Positions 120 to 63,160 of a stretch of 64,000 nucleotides of DNA are shown here, in pieces. Below the pieces are notes generated by a model, which was given only the letters and a program-made list of their open reading frames with translations, had not been told where the DNA came from and did no database searches. Every line of letters starts with the position of its first letter. Position 1 is the stretch's first letter. Origin of the DNA: Brevinematales bacterium (GTDB taxonomy: Bacteria > Spirochaetota > Brevinematia > Brevinematales > Thermospiraceae); assembly GCA_013177995.1 (NCBI GenBank), contig JABLXN010000023.1, forward strand, positions 1 to 64,000, read 5' to 3'. Both the position numbers and the translations under genes were made by a program.

Positions 120-249
120 ACGTTACCAATAAATAATCCTCTCTTTTTGAACAAAAAAGACAAACCGGCCCCTGTAAACAGAAAAAGCGGGGAAGAGGGG
201 CGTAGCCCCTGACCTAAAAAGGGCAAGAAAGCACCCGTGCAAGGGTCTC
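120..249 (+). repeat. R1 element, left-truncated copy
   Basis: This copy keeps the right two thirds of the R1 family: the AAAAAGAC block, the hairpin GGGGCGTAGCCCC, and the right terminal repeat CGTGCAAGGGTCTC ending at 249. The left terminal hairpin found in full copies is missing, so the left boundary is approximate. A fragment resembling the GCTGAAACAAGG repeat follows at about 252-266. No other feature is seen between 35 and the promoter at 328. Confidence 0.8.
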
Positions 250-10465: not shown

Positions 10466-10520
10466 GGCTATCACCTTGTTTCAGCAAAACACCCTCCTCT
10501 CGCTGAAATAAGGTCATAGC
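10466..10520. repeat. Inverted pair of the 20 bp GCTGAAACAAGG repeat
   Basis: GGCTATCACCTTGTTTCAGC (10466-10485) and its near inverse (10502-10520) flank a 16 nt loop, giving a long imperfect hairpin between two genes. The same unit recurs many times inside R2 elements. It has no T tract and is not a classical terminator. Confidence 0.75.
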
Positions 10521-12173: not shown

Positions 12174-12199
12174 GTTTTTTTTCAACTTAAAATTTTTTT

Positions 12200-12974
12200 C
12201 GTTTTACATTCATACAGACGGTTATCTTCACACAAAAACTGAATACCCGTTTAACCTTCTTTTTTCTTTCAGTTTGGGGCTCTTTTTGTTGCCCATCTTC
12301 CTTATTTTCACGAAGTGCTCCCGCGCGGAGCAAAAGGGACGCTGTCCTCGTCGCATGCTACGCATGCGCCTCGGACGGATAGTGCGCCGCTTTTGCGGAC
12401 AAGCAAGGGACTTTTTCTTTTCAGGGGAAGTCCTTCCTCCGTGGGCGACATTGCCTCGTCCTCGGAACTTCGGCAACCACAACTCGTCTTACTGAACCTT
12501 GCCCCCAACTTTATAAACTTTACAAACTTTCAACTTTCAACTGATACGCACCCTCACTTCGGAAGGACTTCCCCCTTTCGGCAAAAGACACACGACCGCA
12601 AAAGTGGCCCGGTGGATACTGAGCGAAGTCGAAGTGGGGTACAGAAAAAAAGGGTGATGAAAGAGCAAGCTATTCTCTTACCAGCCCGCGTGGCTTGTTT
12701 TCTCATAGGGGCTTTTTAGATATGGCACCGCGGTAGGGGCTATGGCGATATTTCAGCAAGAAAGAAACTTTCCGAGACACCAGGGCCCAGGGCTATGACC
12801 TTGTTTCAGCAAAGAACAATGGTTTAACTGAAACAGGGTAATACCCCTATCTTATCGTTATATTTTTTCAAGCACGACTCTTTTTTCAATAGGTACCAGA
12901 ACAGAAAGCTTTTGAGTTATTTCCCTTCACAGGAAATGTGAAAATAGCTAGTCAGTTTCATATGTGGAACGACA
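12200..12974 (-). repeat. R2 long repeat element, copy A
   Basis: Read on the minus strand this ~775 bp block begins with TGTCGTTCCACAT (12974) and ends near ATGAATGTAAAACG (12200). It aligns along most of its length with copy C at 50787-51970: the GAAACTGA...TATTTTCAC block, the GGCTATGACCTTGTTTCAGC hairpin pairs, a TTCTGTACCCCAC stretch, the GCATGC-TAC-GCATGC palindrome (about 12354) and the GGGTATTCAG right end. It contains one inverse copy of CTTCGACTTCGCTCAG (12616-12631). No convincing protein is encoded. Confidence 0.75.
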
Positions 12975-13013
12975 ACATGTGGAACGTCCCCCTTCTTCAA
13001 AAACCTTTTCTTT

Positions 13014-13042
13014 TTGACATTTTCCTCTCTTTCTCCTACAAT
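13014..13042 (+). promoter_or_regulatory. metE promoter
   Basis: TTGACA (13014-13019) and TACAAT (13037-13042) have a 17 bp spacer. Transcription should begin at about 13049, right at the start of the cobalamin riboswitch. Confidence 0.85.
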
Positions 13043-13044
13043 AA

Positions 13045-13204
13045 AACCATCAGGTGGCGAAAGCCTCAAAAAGGAAGTCCGGTGAAAATCCGGCGCAGCC
13101 CCCGCTACTGTAAGGCAGACGAAATCCACAGATGCCACTGGGAAACCGGGAAGGCGTGGAGAGTAGGATGAAGCCAAGCCAGGAGACTTGCCTGAAAATC
13201 CACG
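13045..13204 (+). ncRNA. Cobalamin (B12) riboswitch
   Basis: The conserved core is easy to read: GGTGGCGAAAGCCTC at the 5' stem, AAGTCCGGTGAAAATCCGG, GCAGCCCCCGCTACTGT, and the B12 box GCCACTGGGAAACCGGGAAG, closed by CCAGGAGACTTGCCTG. In this class adenosyl- or other cobalamins lower expression of the downstream gene. That suits metE, which is dispensable when B12 allows MetH to work. About 110 nt separate the aptamer from the ATG. I see no strong intrinsic terminator there, so control of translation or Rho is possible. Confidence 0.95.
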
Positions 13205-13317
13205 AACGGAGGGTTCGACTATGGTCTCTCTTTCTCCTTAAACTTTTCCCTTTTTTCTTCTCTTCCAGGTTTTTCGCTGGTGTTGTCTTTTGTATTCTCT
13301 TCAAAAAGGAGGATTGT

Positions 13318-16297: not shown

Positions 16298-16327
16298 GAG
16301 ACCTTTGCACACCCGTCCAAGGGTCTC
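16298..16327 (+). repeat. R1 minimal derivative (30 bp, both ends only)
   Basis: GAGACCTTTGCAC and CCAAGGGTCTC are joined with almost nothing between. The flanks ATTAT | element | ATTAT form an exact 5 bp direct duplication. This looks like an R1 element that lost its interior, or an excision product. Confidence 0.8.
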
Positions 16328-21007: not shown

Positions 21008-21322
21008 GAGACCTTTGCACGAATGTGCGAAGGTCTCAAAAAAGTAATAAAAAAGCAAAAAATAGTATAAAAATATTTCTTTCCATAATCAATAATTCTA
21101 CTTTTTTGAATAGAAAAGACAAATAAGCCCTTGTAAACAGAAAAAACGGGGTTTCAGGGGCGTAGCCCCTGACCCAGAAAGGGCAAGAAAGCACCCGTGC
21201 AAGGGTCTCAATTCTACTTTTTGAATAGAAAAGACAAATAAGCCCTTGTAAACAGAAAAACGGGGAAGAGGGGCGTAGCCCCTGACCTAAAAAGGGCAAG
21301 AAAGCACCCGTGCAAGGGTCTC
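21008..21322 (+). repeat. R1 element with internal partial tandem duplication
   Basis: A full ~202 bp R1 copy (21008-21209) with hairpin arms GAGACCTTTGCAC/GTGCGAAGGTCTC and right end CGTGCAAGGGTCTC is followed by a second copy of its right 113 bp (21210-21322). The outer flanks GGATA and GAATA could be a 5 bp duplication with one change. It fills the gap between the terminator at 21001 and the MFS promoter. Confidence 0.9.
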
Positions 21323-24715: not shown

Positions 24716-25140
24716 GAGCCCCACCTGGCCGCTTTTGCTGTGGTGAAAAGAACTTTTTGTACTGCTAACGGGGAAGTCTTTCCGAAGTGAGGGTGCAGGA
24801 GGCACCCGGGGCGACATCTTTTGTTGCTTTTCCCCCAAGCCCACCGAAGCAAAGCCGCGGGGGCTTTGCTGAGACATAGTAATAGCCGTGGTTGGCTTTT
24901 CTCCCTGAAACAAGGTGGCAGCCACTGCTTGAGTTTGTATGGAGGTTGGTTAAACGTTTAACCAAGTGTGTATTTGCTGAAACAAGGTAATAGCCCTGGT
25001 CCCTGGTGTTCCGGAAAGTACTTTTTTGCTGAAACAAAGTCATAGCCTTCGCCCCTGCCGCGGTGCGCCGTCATAGAAGCCCCGTGGGAACAGAAGCCCT
25101 GTGGGCTGGTGACAGAAGGCCTCATTCTCCTACGGATGGC

Positions 25141-25224
25141 CGAGCCACAGGAGGTGGCGAGGAAGCTCAAGGTCAGACAAGGAGGGTTGTCCTTGAGCGG
25201 CTACAGAAGAGAGCAAGGCTACAG
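25141..25224 (+). ncRNA. Putative structured RNA module in R2 copy B
   Basis: A GCCAC/GTGGC hairpin is followed by an eight-pair stem GCTCAAGG (25165-25172) / CCTTGAGC (25191-25198) enclosing a four-pair inner stem ACAA/TTGT around GGAGGG. The homologous 84 nt in copy C has GCCCGGGG/CCCCGGGC and ACAG/CTGT, so four pairs differ by compensatory changes. A third strand CAAGG (25214-25218) could pair alternatively with CCTTG. Transcription is not shown, and I match it to no known RNA class. Confidence 0.5.
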
Positions 25225-25497
25225 TTTTTTGTTCCAGCCCGGATGGTAAGACGGAAGACGAAATGCTATAGAAACCGTCGCAGGGGCGGGTTGGGGATTT
25301 CAAAAGGGGCGGGAGCCCCTTTTGTCCCGCGCAGAAGCGCTTCGTGGAAAAAAGGAAGATGGGTAACAAAAAGAGCCCAAACTGAAAGAAAAAAGAGGGT
25401 TAAACGGGTATTCAGTTTTTGCGTAAAGATAACCATTCTGTATGAATGTGGAACGACAAAAGAATACCATCTTCCTTTTCTTGAAAGAACCCAAAAA

Positions 25498-30738: not shown

Positions 30739-30759
30739 ACTTCCCTCCTGTCTTCAATG

Positions 30760-31102
30760 TGGAGGCGGTGGGAATCGAACCCACGTCCTGGAAAGAGATG
30801 CCATAGACCTTATCCACAGGCTTGGTCCTGCTTTGGTGTTCTTCTTCCGAAGGAGGCAGGACAAACCCTCAGAAGAAAGAGCCGGTTTGTTTCAGGCAGA
30901 AACCCCGGCTTTTTCTGCCCTATCCTCTGTGTCTGACCTTCGTTAGCTATGCAGAGGAGCCACAGCTAAGAAGGCTGGCCGGCTTAAGCAGCCAGGAGAG
31001 CAGAATTATCTGCGTCTATTTGTGTGAAGCAGTTTTAAGGGATACTTCAGCCCTGCCTGAAGTCTATAACCTCCCATTTCCAATCGAAAACCATTCGCCC
31101 CC
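30760..31102 (-). ncRNA. ssrA: tmRNA (ssrA)
   Basis: The 3' end on the minus strand is the tRNA-like T arm GACGTGGGTTCGATTCCCAC with acceptor strand CGCCTCC, which pairs with the 5' end GGGGGCG (31102-31096) over seven pairs with one G:U. CCA is not encoded. The tag frame (31013-30984) starts with the resume codon GCA after AATAGAC and reads ADNSALLAA, then TAA. The GGGCTGAAGTATCCC stem and pseudoknot-rich middle have the usual size (343 nt). tmRNA rescues stalled ribosomes and tags the nascent peptide. Confidence 0.96.
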
Positions 31103-34266: not shown

Positions 34267-34361
34267 CCTTCCAACCCAAAAGAAAGTCCCTATATTCTAA
34301 GCCAAAAAAAAGAATATGTCAATTGGGGAAAAACTCTTTTAAGACCAAAAATTGACTAGAT

Positions 34362-34561
34362 GAGACCTTTGCACGAATGTGCGAAGGTCTCAAAAAAGTA
34401 GTAAAAAAACAAAAATAGTATAAAAATATTCCTTATCATAATAAATAATTTTACTTTTTTGAATAAAAAAGACAAATAAACCCTTGTAAACAGAAAAAGC
34501 GGGGAAGAGGGGCGTAGCTCCTGACCCAAACAAGGGAAGAAAACACCCGTGCAAGGGTCTC
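34362..34561 (+). repeat. R1 element, complete copy with TAGAT duplication
   Basis: The 200 bp element runs from GAGACCTTTGCACG to CGTGCAAGGGTCTC and is flanked by TAGAT on both sides. It has the full order: left hairpin, AT-rich block with TAGTATAAAAATATT, GACAAATAAACCC block, and a hairpin GGGGCGTAGCTCC that has one change against the family. It sits between pyrK and the flaA terminator. Confidence 0.93.
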
Positions 34562-34593
34562 TAGATATTAACCCATACCTTTTCTTTAGAACC

Positions 34594-34641: not shown

Positions 34642-35616
34642 TTACTTGGCTGGAGCATTGGCTCTCTGCTGAGCCTTGGCCTGTTCGTAGAGCTGCTGGA
34701 TATCACTCAAGCGCTTGAGTTCAAGGATACGTCTATCAAGTCTTTCCTTGGCAAGGATACCCCACTGAGCCTCATCATCGATATCCATCTCCTCACGGAT
34801 AATAGCCCGGTCAAACTCCATATCAATATCCTTGAAGTAGATCACAAAATCACCGCCCTGTTCAATCTCAGGTTTGTACACAATGTAGCTATCAAACACC
34901 ACATAAGGGTAGCTTCTTGGATAGAGAGGGATTCTCTGAAGCACACGATCTCTCACATCATCAGTGTACTCAGGATTTTGCCAGAGAAGTTTTCTCCATC
35001 CCTCGAACCACACAGATCCCATGAAGTAATCCCTGGTCTGATCCATGCGGTCGCGAAGACGAATACCAACCTGCATCTGATAGTTGAGACCATACACCCA
35101 GGTAGAAATACTCTTGATCTGACCAACATTGGCAAGGAGTCCCATCACAAGAGAGTTCTCTTCACCACCCTCAGCGTTGACAAAAGACCTATCATCATAG
35201 TAAGCAAAGATATCAAAAGGTGGCTTGATGAGAGCCCAGGAGAGGAAACGACCCTGAATAAAATGGATACGTGCACCAAGCACCGTTCCACCTTCACTCT
35301 CCCACTTTTTACTCTTCACTGGCTTGGTGTAGGAAAGCACATTGTTTTTCGTCGTATTGGCCGAAGGAGCCAAAATAATACGCCAGTTCGAGAGAGCCCA
35401 ATCAGAACCTGTGAACTTCACCGTCGGATAACCGTAGTCTGCCAGGTTAATGACATTGGAAGCTTGCTCCCGGATCGCGTTATCCTTTTCCACCACCTTG
35501 GCTATATTCTGTTCAAAGGTGGGGAAATGAATCAATTTTTTCTGGATAGCGCCAAATCCGCTTGCGGTTATCCATAATACACTGACAATAGATAGAAACG
35601 CCACTCCTTTCCTCAT
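34642..35616 (-). CDS. flaA: Flagellar filament outer layer (sheath) protein FlaA
   Basis: The 324-residue protein has a signal peptide (about 1-23) and the block NVINLADYGYPTVKFTGSDWALSNW, followed by ILAPSANT, which marks spirochaetal FlaA. FlaA coats the FlaB core of the periplasmic flagellum and is exported by Sec, consistent with the signal peptide here. The C-terminal part has an acidic EEMDIDDEAQWG stretch and a helical Gln/Ala-rich tail. It is monocistronic, with a strong sigma-70 promoter carrying a palindrome in its spacer and a strong terminator. This is the best evidence that the host is a spirochaete. Confidence 0.92.
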   Translation of the reverse strand: MRKGVAFLSIVSVLWITASGFGAIQKKLIHFPTFEQNIAKVVEKDNAIREQASNVINLADYGYPTVKFTGSDWALSNWRIILAPSANTTKNNVLSYTKPVKSKKWESEGGTVLGARIHFIQGRFLSWALIKPPFDIFAYYDDRSFVNAEGGEENSLVMGLLANVGQIKSISTWVYGLNYQMQVGIRLRDRMDQTRDYFMGSVWFEGWRKLLWQNPEYTDDVRDRVLQRIPLYPRSYPYVVFDSYIVYKPEIEQGGDFVIYFKDIDMEFDRAIIREEMDIDDEAQWGILAKERLDRRILELKRLSDIQQLYEQAKAQQRANAPAK

Positions 35617-40799: not shown

Positions 40800-40875
40800 G
40801 GTTTCCTCCATGTTTTGAGAAAAATCGCTCTTTATTATAGAACAAAATCAAAAAAACAGCAAAAAACCATTCAAA

Positions 40876-41046
40876 ACTCATACACGAGCATTTTCTTGCC
40901 CTGTCCTGGTCAGGGGCTACGCCCCTCTTCCCCGCTTTTTCTGCCCTCGAATAGAACTTCTTTTCACGGGTACAAAAAGATATTTTTGTCTTATTTTGTT
41001 TTTTATTACTTTCTTTGAGAGCATTGCACGAATGTGCAATGCTCTC
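40876..41046 (-). repeat. R1 element, diverged copy with compensated hairpin
   Basis: This minus-oriented copy ends with the perfect hairpin GAGAGCATTGCAC-GAAT-GTGCAATGCTCTC (41017-41046). Two pairs are swapped on both arms relative to other copies. The interior keeps GGGGCTACGCCCC and the TTTCTTGCCC block; the far end is degraded. Its last 2 bp overlap the stop codon of the FAD protein gene. Confidence 0.82.
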
Positions 41047-50786: not shown

Positions 50787-51970
50787 CGTTCCAAATGTCG
50801 TCCCACATAGGAAACTGAATACCTATTTTCACCTTTCCTGTGAAGGGACATAACATAAAAGCTTTCTGTTCTGGTACCTATTGAAAAAAGTCGTGCTTGC
50901 AAACATATAACGACAAGATAGGGCTATTACCCTGTTTCAGATAAACCTTTGTTCTTTGCTGAAACAAAGTCATAGCCATCGTCCCAACAGCGGTGCTATA
51001 TCTAACCTCTGCTGGAAGAGAAACCCTGCGAGTTGGTGAGAGAAGGTCTTGTTATTCCTCTCTTTTTTCTGTACCCCACCGGGCCGCTTTTGCGGTTGTG
51101 TACTCTTGGCCTGTGGCGGGAAAGTCCTTCCGAAGTGAGGATGCAGGAAGCACCCGAGGCGACATCTTCTGTTGCTTTTCCCTAAAAGCCCACCGAAGCA
51201 TAGCCGCGGGGCTTTTGCTGAGACAGAGTAATAGCCGTGGGTGGTTTTTCTCCCTGAAACAAGGTGATAGCCACCACTTGAGTTTGTATGGAGGTTGGTT
51301 AAACGTTTAACCAATGAGGTGGTTAGCTGAGACAGGGGAATAGCCAGAGGGGGAGGGGATTTGTGTAGACATAGGTTAAACGTTTAACCAGGTGGTGTGT
51401 TTGCTGAAACAAGGTCATAGCCCCGGTGTCCTGCGGTCTCAGAAAGCTCGCTTCTTGCTGAAACATCGCCATAGCCTTCCCGCCCCTGACTGCGGTGCGC
51501 CGTCGGAGAAGCCCCGGCGGGAGGGAAAGCCCTGCGGGCTGGTAACGGAAGTCATCGTCTTTTCACCACTGGCCGAGCCACAGGAGGTGGCGAGGAAGCC
51601 CGGGGTCAGACAGGGAGGGCTGTCCCCGGGCGGCTACAGAAGAGAGCGGGGCTACAGGCTTTTGTTTCAGCCCGCACCGTGGGAGACAGGTCGGTGGCTA
51701 CAGAAACCGCCGCAGGGGCGGGGACGGGGTTTTCAAAAGGGGCGGAGCCCCTTTTGCCCCGTGCGGGAGCGCTTTTTCCGAAGTCAGGATGACGAGTTGA
51801 TGTCGCCCACGGAGAAAGGACTTTACCCTAAAGAAAAGGTGTCTGCTTGCCCGCAAAACCGGCCCATAGTTCGTCCGAGGCGCATGCGTAGCATGCGACG
51901 AGGACAACGCCATTCTGCACCCGTCTATCGCCGCGAGGGCAAAACTTTTTGATGAATGTGAAACTACAAC
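50787..51970 (+). repeat. R2 long repeat element, copy C (longest)
   Basis: This ~1.18 kb non-coding block has a left end with TGTCGTCCCACATAGG and a right end with GATGAATGTGAAACTACA. It contains seven copies of the 20 bp GCTGAAACAAGG-type repeat (50921-51476), two LacI-operator-like palindromes (51295-51314 and 51374-51389), the structured module at 51574-51657, and the GCATGCG-TAG-CATGC palindrome near 51890. It aligns with copy A at both ends and with copy B through the middle. The 186-residue frame at 51392-51952 is not protein-like. Confidence 0.78.
51574..51657 (+). ncRNA. Putative structured RNA module in R2 copy C
   Basis: The 84 nt match the module of copy B position by position. 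The main stem is GCCCGGGG (51598-51605) / CCCCGGGC (51624-51631), the inner stem is ACAG/CTGT around GGAGGG, and the leading GCCAC/GTGGC hairpin is unchanged. The alternative partner strand CGGGG (51647-51651) changes in step. It is supported only by comparison of two copies. Confidence 0.5.
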
Positions 51971-53015: not shown

Positions 53016-53218
53016 GAGACCTTTGCACGAATGTGCGAAGGTCTCAAAAAAGTGGTAAAAAAACAAAAAATAGTATAAAAATGTTCCTTAACGTAATAAA
53101 TAAACCTATTCCTTTGAACAAAAAAAGACAAATAAGCCCTTGTAAATGGAAAAAACGGGGTTTCAGGGGCGTAGCCCCTGAAACAAACAAGGGAAGAAAA
53201 TACCCGTGCAAGGGTCTC
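53016..53218 (+). repeat. R1 element, complete copy in a T-tract target
   Basis: The 203 bp element has the hairpin GAGACCTTTGCAC/GTGCGAAGGTCTC at the left and CGTGCAAGGGTCTC at the right. Both flanks are TTTTT, consistent with a 5 bp duplication but not proof of one. It lies between the TPR gene terminator and the SulP promoter. Confidence 0.9.
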
Positions 53219-55851: not shown

Positions 55852-56052
55852 GAGACCTTTGCACTTTCGTGCAAAGGTCTCAAAAAAGTAATACAAAACG
55901 AAAAATGATATAAAAGTATTCACTTTCATAATAAATAATTCTCTATTTTTGAATAAAAAAGACAAACCAGCCCTTGTGAACGGAAAAATCGGGGTTTCAG
56001 GGGCGCAGCCCCTGACCCAAACAGGGGAAGAAAACACTCGTGCAGGGGTCTC
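55852..56052 (+). repeat. R1 element, complete copy with GAATT duplication
   Basis: The 201 bp element starts with the perfect hairpin GAGACCTTTGCAC-TTTC-GTGCAAAGGTCTC and ends CGTGCAGGGGTCTC. Flanks are GAATT | element | GAATT. A GGCTATCACCTTG fragment related to the 20 bp repeat lies nearby at about 56078. No other feature is seen between TatD and the phosphatase gene. Confidence 0.93.
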
Positions 56053-62958: not shown

Positions 62959-63160
62959 GAGACCTTTGCACGGGTATTTTCTTCCCTTGTTTGTGTCAGG
63001 GGCTACGCCCCTGAAACCCCGCTTTTTCTGTTTCCAAGGGTCTATTTGTCTTTTTTTATCCAAAAAATAGGCTTATTTATTATAGAAAGGAAATATTTTT
63101 ATACTCTTTTTGCTTTTTTATCACTTTCTTGAGACCTTTGCACATTCATGCAAAGGTCTC
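62959..63160 (-). repeat. R1 element, complete copy with ATTTC duplication
   Basis: The 202 bp minus-oriented copy has its hairpin end at 63131-63160 (arms GAGACCTTTGCA/TGCAAAGGTCTC) and the single-arm end at 62959. Flanks are ATTTC | element | ATTTC. It lies between two divergent promoters. Confidence 0.93.

Follow-up and report, generated by a model that had tools for sequence, protein, structure and literature searches.

The described systems closest to R1, a repeat of about 200 bp in the genome of a Brevinematales bacterium, are IS5-family insertion elements and MITEs with similar ends. The BrickBuilt MITE of Porphyromonas gingivalis is bounded by GAGACCTTTGCA...TGCAAAGGTCTC, and ISPg1, like ISPg9 an IS5-family element, carries the end GAGACCATTGCA (PMC4596501). 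ATR, the AT-rich repeat of Neisseria meningitidis, is a MITE with 19 copies (cited in PMC4596501); as that paper summarizes it, ATR was given the IS5-family parent ISNme1 on the basis of its ends, GAGACCTTTGCAAAA. The likeness of R1 to ATR is one of description. BrickBuilt, ISPg1 and R1 have similar ends, a likeness drawn from published ends only, and both BrickBuilt and R1 contain internal repeat units in some copies and have a related IS in the same genome. The two differ in that BrickBuilt is present in 19 copies with irregular duplications (PMC4596501), whereas the copies of R1 number about 150 or more, its target duplication (TSD) is uniformly 5 bp and its left end is palindromic. ISAba23 has an end, GAGACCTTTGCACGAA, identical to the left 16 bp of R1 (16/16); unlike R1, the ISAba23-like IS is autonomous, is ~1.25 kb long and lacks the left palindrome. 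R1 in itself is new, while the type of element is known, an IS5-family MITE whose mechanism is that of the textbooks apart from the left end. The Nezha MITE of cyanobacteria, reportedly an active bacterial MITE, has ends that may resemble those of R1.

The window, that is, the whole stretch of 64,000 nucleotides that was analyzed, holds five full copies of R1 of 200–203 bp, together with derivatives:

34362–34561 (+): full copy of 200 bp with terminal inverted repeats; exact TSD TAGAT at 34357–34361 and 34562–34566
34362–34391 (+): left end of this copy, a 30-bp palindrome in which the terminus occurs twice, in inverted orientation; the arms pair in 64 sampled copies
34545–34561 (+): right end of this copy, ACCCGTGCAAGGGTCTC; agrees at all 17 bp with the terminus of an IS on contig 27
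21008–21209 (+): full copy
21210–21322 (+): partial tandem unit of 113 bp (R1 positions ~85–201), abutting the right end of the 21008 copy
53016–53218 (+): full copy within a T run; TSD TTTTT
55852–56052 (+): full copy; TSD GAATT
62959–63160 (−): full copy; TSD ATTTC
127–249 (+): left-truncated R1 (positions ~78–201)
16298–16327 (+): minimal 30-bp element, left terminus fused to right terminus; TSD ATTAT
40874–41046 (−): old, diverged R1; hairpin at 41017–41046, GAGAGCATTGCAC...GTGCAATGCTCTC, with pairing kept despite changes on both arms

The five full copies lie where the original prediction had placed them and have the lengths it gave; the exact flanks that it reported at 34362, 55852, 62959 and 16298 are present, the last around a 30-bp element, and the 53016 copy does sit in a run of T residues. 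Other details required adjustment. The flanks GGATA/GAATA ascribed to the 21008 copy bound a 315-bp pair, formed by that copy and the tandem unit at 21210–21322, which had gone unmentioned. The derivative placed at 120 is real but occupies 127–249, and the one placed at 40876 is likewise real, with a hairpin that has diverged and is still self-complementary. The shared 14-bp ends exist, but left (GAGACCTTTGCACG) and right (GAGACCCTTGCACG) are not identical, differing at 1 position of 14; the terminal inverted repeat pair GAGACCTTTGCACG / CGTGCAAGGGTCTC is complementary at 13 of 14 positions.

The left end as a whole is the 30-bp palindrome GAGACCTTTGCAC-GAAT-GTGCRAAGGTCTC, which with inner-arm variation reads GAGACCTTTGCAC-GAAT-GTGC(A/G)AAGGTCTC, and its inner arm and the R1 right end are near-identical direct repeats. 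Farther inside, a GGGGCGTAGCCCC hairpin is nested in a larger stem, formed by pairing of an internal CCCTTG with the right end. The consensus has 37% GC; sampled copies average 91% identity to it and 87% among themselves, and no coding frame of element length spans R1. At up to 3 mismatches, the 14-mer end has 29 matches in the window, compared with 4.6 expected. All window copies are intergenic, except that the 16298 element runs 15 bp into a gene if one possible GTG start is used. The window also contains a FlaA gene (34642–35616), which makes a spirochaete host very probable, and, by Rfam match, a tmRNA gene (30757–31102, −) and a cobalamin riboswitch (13035–13209, +).

Copy statistics come from ~235 kb of sampled sequence surrounding known copies that had been selected for near-perfect ends, a choice that inflates hairpin conservation in the sample; in the set of 67 full copies, one copy enters twice, once per orientation, and one of the pairings includes an IS relic. 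An exact 5-bp duplication flanks 38 of these 67 copies (1.7% expected from mismatched flanks), so that the repeats, far from being absent at most genomic copies, are exact at the majority of those sampled. Flank matches of 4 bp and 6 bp are rare (7 and 2 copies, respectively), and the TSDs are 84% A+T. Empty sites were sought by joining the flanks of a copy and matching them against the sampled sequence. Paralogous sites that contain a single 5-mer were found for the copies at contigs 18:14476, 11:30285 and 12:4774. The first of these splits the repeat GTAAAGTTTATAAAG with duplication of AGTTT, and the second has ten uninterrupted paralogues of its target repeat. The copy at contig 7:45641 has a 6-bp duplication, AAGTAT, that is missing from its empty paralogues. 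Uninterrupted paralogues also lie in the window:

12440–12574 (−): empty target, paralogue of the repeat split at contig 18:14476 (TSD AGTTT)
25315–25457 (+): paralogue of the repeat split by R1 at contig 11:30285; a second lies at 12199–12353

At the 34362 locus, colinearity with two congeners (G001 and G002) extends to either side, and their spacer is shorter and lacks R1. Empty sites, which the original prediction had proposed to seek in sister strains, are found both within other repeats of the same genome and at the orthologous locus of the two congeners. Together, the TSDs and empty sites support its central claim, MITE-like mobility without a transposase in the element: R1 is a non-autonomous MITE-like element that has transposed with 5-bp target duplications.

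A PF01609 family search of the genome led to three places, one of which supplies the full-length IS with R1-type ends that had been suggested as a check:

Contig 27, L037:1320–2685: IS of 1366 bp; its 14-bp inverted ends, GAGACCCTTGCACG, are perfect, and its single transposase is intact

Its transposase matches NF033581, ‘IS5 family transposase’, at 283.5 bits (cut-off 140), and its invariant D146, D252 and E302 are compatible with a DDE triad. The right end of R1 and the end of this IS are identical over 17/17 bp; both IS ends are of the C variant, and the R1 left end has T. The GAGACC...TTGCA ends that the original prediction linked to some IS families are known ends, and the family that it left unassigned is IS5, NF033581 group. 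In the assembly, which is split into 57 contigs, a relic of a second copy of the IS adjoins an R1 on contig 12 (91% identity over 96 bp). The contig-27 IS is flanked by AGAAA/AAAAA, matching at 4/5 bp, and its recent movement is unproven. Only its terminal 14–17 bp, and nothing of its body, are found in R1. R1 thus did not arise from the contig-27 copy by simple internal deletion and may descend directly from a sister IS that has been lost. As judged from the shared ends, the contig-27 IS is the probable source of R1 mobility, and we infer that its transposase moves R1. Another candidate full-length IS, contig 3:36015–37398, was rejected; it proved to be an R1 copy that a different non-coding repeat interrupts. 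A decayed IS5-type transposase relative with several stops occurs in the R1-free congener G001 (L096, contig 27:185322–185705), so the IS lineage was once present in the genus.

The same ends and duplication length recur around relatives of this transposase. A Candidatus Ruthturnera relative, 37–40% identical to the contig-27 enzyme, belongs to an IS with about 18 near-full copies and ends GAGACCTTTGCATAAA; of its 16 copies in which neither end is damaged, 9–10 have 5-bp TSDs. On plasmids, relatives in Solidesulfovibrio (46%), Desulfolutivibrio and Capnocytophaga likewise have GAGACC-type ends and 5-bp TSDs, a combination that surrounds transposase relatives in four other bacterial genera, and the ISAba23-like transposase (NF033581) is ~37% identical to the contig-27 enzyme. 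R1 thus shares its ends with the IS of contig 27, Ruthturnera, ISAba23, Solidesulfovibrio, Desulfolutivibrio and Capnocytophaga within the NF033581 clade, and its TSD length is that of the clade, 5 bp in most intact-ended Ruthturnera copies and in the three plasmid ISs. Inspection of a related transposase locus in G006 revealed no GAGACC ends.

These comparisons make it very probable that R1 is an IS5-family MITE mobilized in trans by a full-length IS5-family IS of the same genome and amplified in this lineage. The gene-less R1 would depend on an IS5-family DDE transposase supplied in trans by the contig-27 IS or lost sister copies. The enzyme would recognize the ~14–17-bp GAGACCYTTGCAC termini, and R1 would be cut out or copied and then inserted at an AT-rich target; a stagger of 5 bp would account for the 5-bp duplications. 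Amplification would have followed the split from the sampled congeners, with survivors mostly intergenic.

Other sources of mobility fit less well. Contigs 36 and 38 of the genome carry IS1380-family transposases, and R1-type ends delimit the contig-36 copy precisely, so an enzyme of this family could be imagined to move R1 in place of the IS5-family enzyme. However, the intact contig-38 element (L038:1335–2993) has its own inverted ends, CCTGCATCCGTG, and no GAGACC end, and the homology between the two IS1380 copies breaks off at the start of the R1 ends. The contig-36 copy carries a frameshift, has lost the CCTGCATCCGTG ends at exactly these points and looks to have acquired its R1 ends by rearrangement. 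GAGACC ends are instead carried by relatives of the IS5-type transposase. IS1380 was rejected as the R1 driver because its ends differ from those of R1, and such a role is very improbable. Short palindromes in high intergenic copy number also recall REP/REPIN or IS200/IS605-type elements, which are moved single-stranded by a tyrosine (RAYT/Y1) transposase. Yet 5-bp TSDs and terminal inverted repeats are DDE hallmarks, Y1 enzymes make none, and a matching DDE IS is present on contig 27; this reading is largely refuted by the TSD statistics and is scarcely credible.

An explanation of another kind is that R1 is a domesticated regulatory or structural RNA or DNA repeat, with hairpins useful to the host in termination or mRNA stability and mobility confined to the past. 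It gains from strong folding (z of −6.45 and −4.57 on the two strands), from retention of the hairpin even in old copies and from the almost entirely intergenic placement. Folding is, however, to be expected of a MITE, the R1 hairpin has no T-run terminator, R1 has no Rfam match, its orientation to flanking genes has no clear bias in a small sample, and it is missing from congeners. We regard domestication as unlikely, and an IS5-family MITE is the preferred reading of R1.

The extent of amplification was assessed by searching the genome (2.38 Mb, 57 contigs) and its relatives with R1 and its ends, as had been proposed. The 14-bp end with at most 1 mismatch has 387 matches genome-wide versus 2 for a reversed control, and the 30-bp left-end palindrome occurs in 152 places, which at 200 bp each would place R1 at roughly 1.3% of the genome. 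An exact search for the 13-bp end core gave zero matches in the two congeners and four further genomes, BLAST of R1 against 59 relatives gave short low-complexity hits and no convincing copy, and no R1 matches were found in plasmids, phages or viral contigs. A literature search found no MITE family of this kind in spirochaetes. Most likely, R1 was amplified after the split from the two sampled congeners, in a lineage-specific burst.

When flanks were joined, 4 of 32 copies interrupted an ORF of at least 150 aa, versus 41% for positions drawn at random from these sequences; all four interruptions are close to the end of an ORF and could be spurious. R1 is thus mostly intergenic, as expected if insertions in genes are purged. 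Relative to neighboring genes, a small sample (10 same sense, 6 antisense, 11 convergent, 4 divergent) has no clear bias. The claim that every copy lies between genes holds within the window but not strictly genome-wide. On contig 36 (L039:2467–2556), an amylase-like gene is interrupted by a solo 30-bp R1 hairpin, which has a copy of a ~30-bp direct repeat, GTACTTCCCGAACTATTGAGAATAACAAAC, on each side; the frame is still open.

Partial tandem units start exactly after the GTCTC end at 21210 and contig 8:125686, with an array of the same kind at contig 18:10693–11262, and the IS1380 copy of contig 36 breaks off, on either side, precisely at an R1 end. The tandem units and these breaks would fit adjacent deletions made by a transposase. 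R1 also neighbors other repeats. One R1 right end is broken by a second repeat, a non-coding mosaic of ~1.2 kb whose ends, GTCGTTCCACAT...ATGTGGAACGAC, are inverted (L034:719–1880, contig 3:36218–37379); this second repeat is flanked by a 20-bp direct repeat, AAACACCCGTGCAAGGGTCT, and therefore looks mobile, with a ~20-bp target duplication. Its relatives in the window lie at 12199–12975, 24769–25457 and 50796–51909. The repeat TTTGCTGAAACAAGGTCATAGCC is present in many copies in both orientations (window 10466–10518, 12791–12843, 24970–25066 and 50952–50996); some adjoin GGTTAAACGTTTAACC palindromes, and one is interrupted by R1 at contig 54:4239.

The left end gives rise to features of its own. 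Elements of 30 bp, consisting of two termini back to back with exact 5-bp TSDs, were found at three places:

16298 in the window: TSD ATTAT
Contig 10:26909: TSD AAACT
Contig 21:5321: TSD TTTTT

They are best explained by a deletion that removes the body and joins the inner arm to the right end; the direct repetition of these two sequences would make it possible, and the remnant would retain the original duplication. Transposition of the 30-bp units themselves is a possible alternative. The 4-nt center of the palindrome is GAAT in most copies, but 7 of the 64 that were aligned have the inverted form, ATTC. These ATTC copies are scattered over the R1 tree and are not mutual nearest relatives, and all have perfectly matching arms (Fisher p = 0.012). 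Matching target duplications are kept in four flipped copies, one of them 6 bp, making recombination between copies an unlikely cause of the inverted centers. Among 80 hairpins, three paired double changes on opposite arms were detected (two in window hairpin 41017 and one at contig 1:38359); a fourth scripted case, contig 18:11286, was an indel artefact, and contig 54:4239 (GATACC...GGTATC) is an additional one. As the sample favors intact hairpins, flip and double-change counts are indicative only. Template switching across a palindrome is a known process and would suffice; selection for the hairpin is another possibility. Tentatively, the left end may have been repeatedly extruded as a hairpin or cruciform, flipped and copied arm-to-arm, by replication template switching or by the transposase, a proposal that we hold as possible rather than likely.

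R1 would be a very abundant MITE for a spirochaete; it widens the range of IS5-family (ISNme1/ISPg1/ISAba23-like) MITEs and supplies marked empty and filled sites. The palindromic, flipping left end is the part of R1 most worth following, its double terminus being a natural experiment on palindrome flipping and the formation of minimal 30-bp elements. If the proposed extrusion and copying are true, one genome would offer ~150 natural palindromes in which flip and arm-copy events can be counted.
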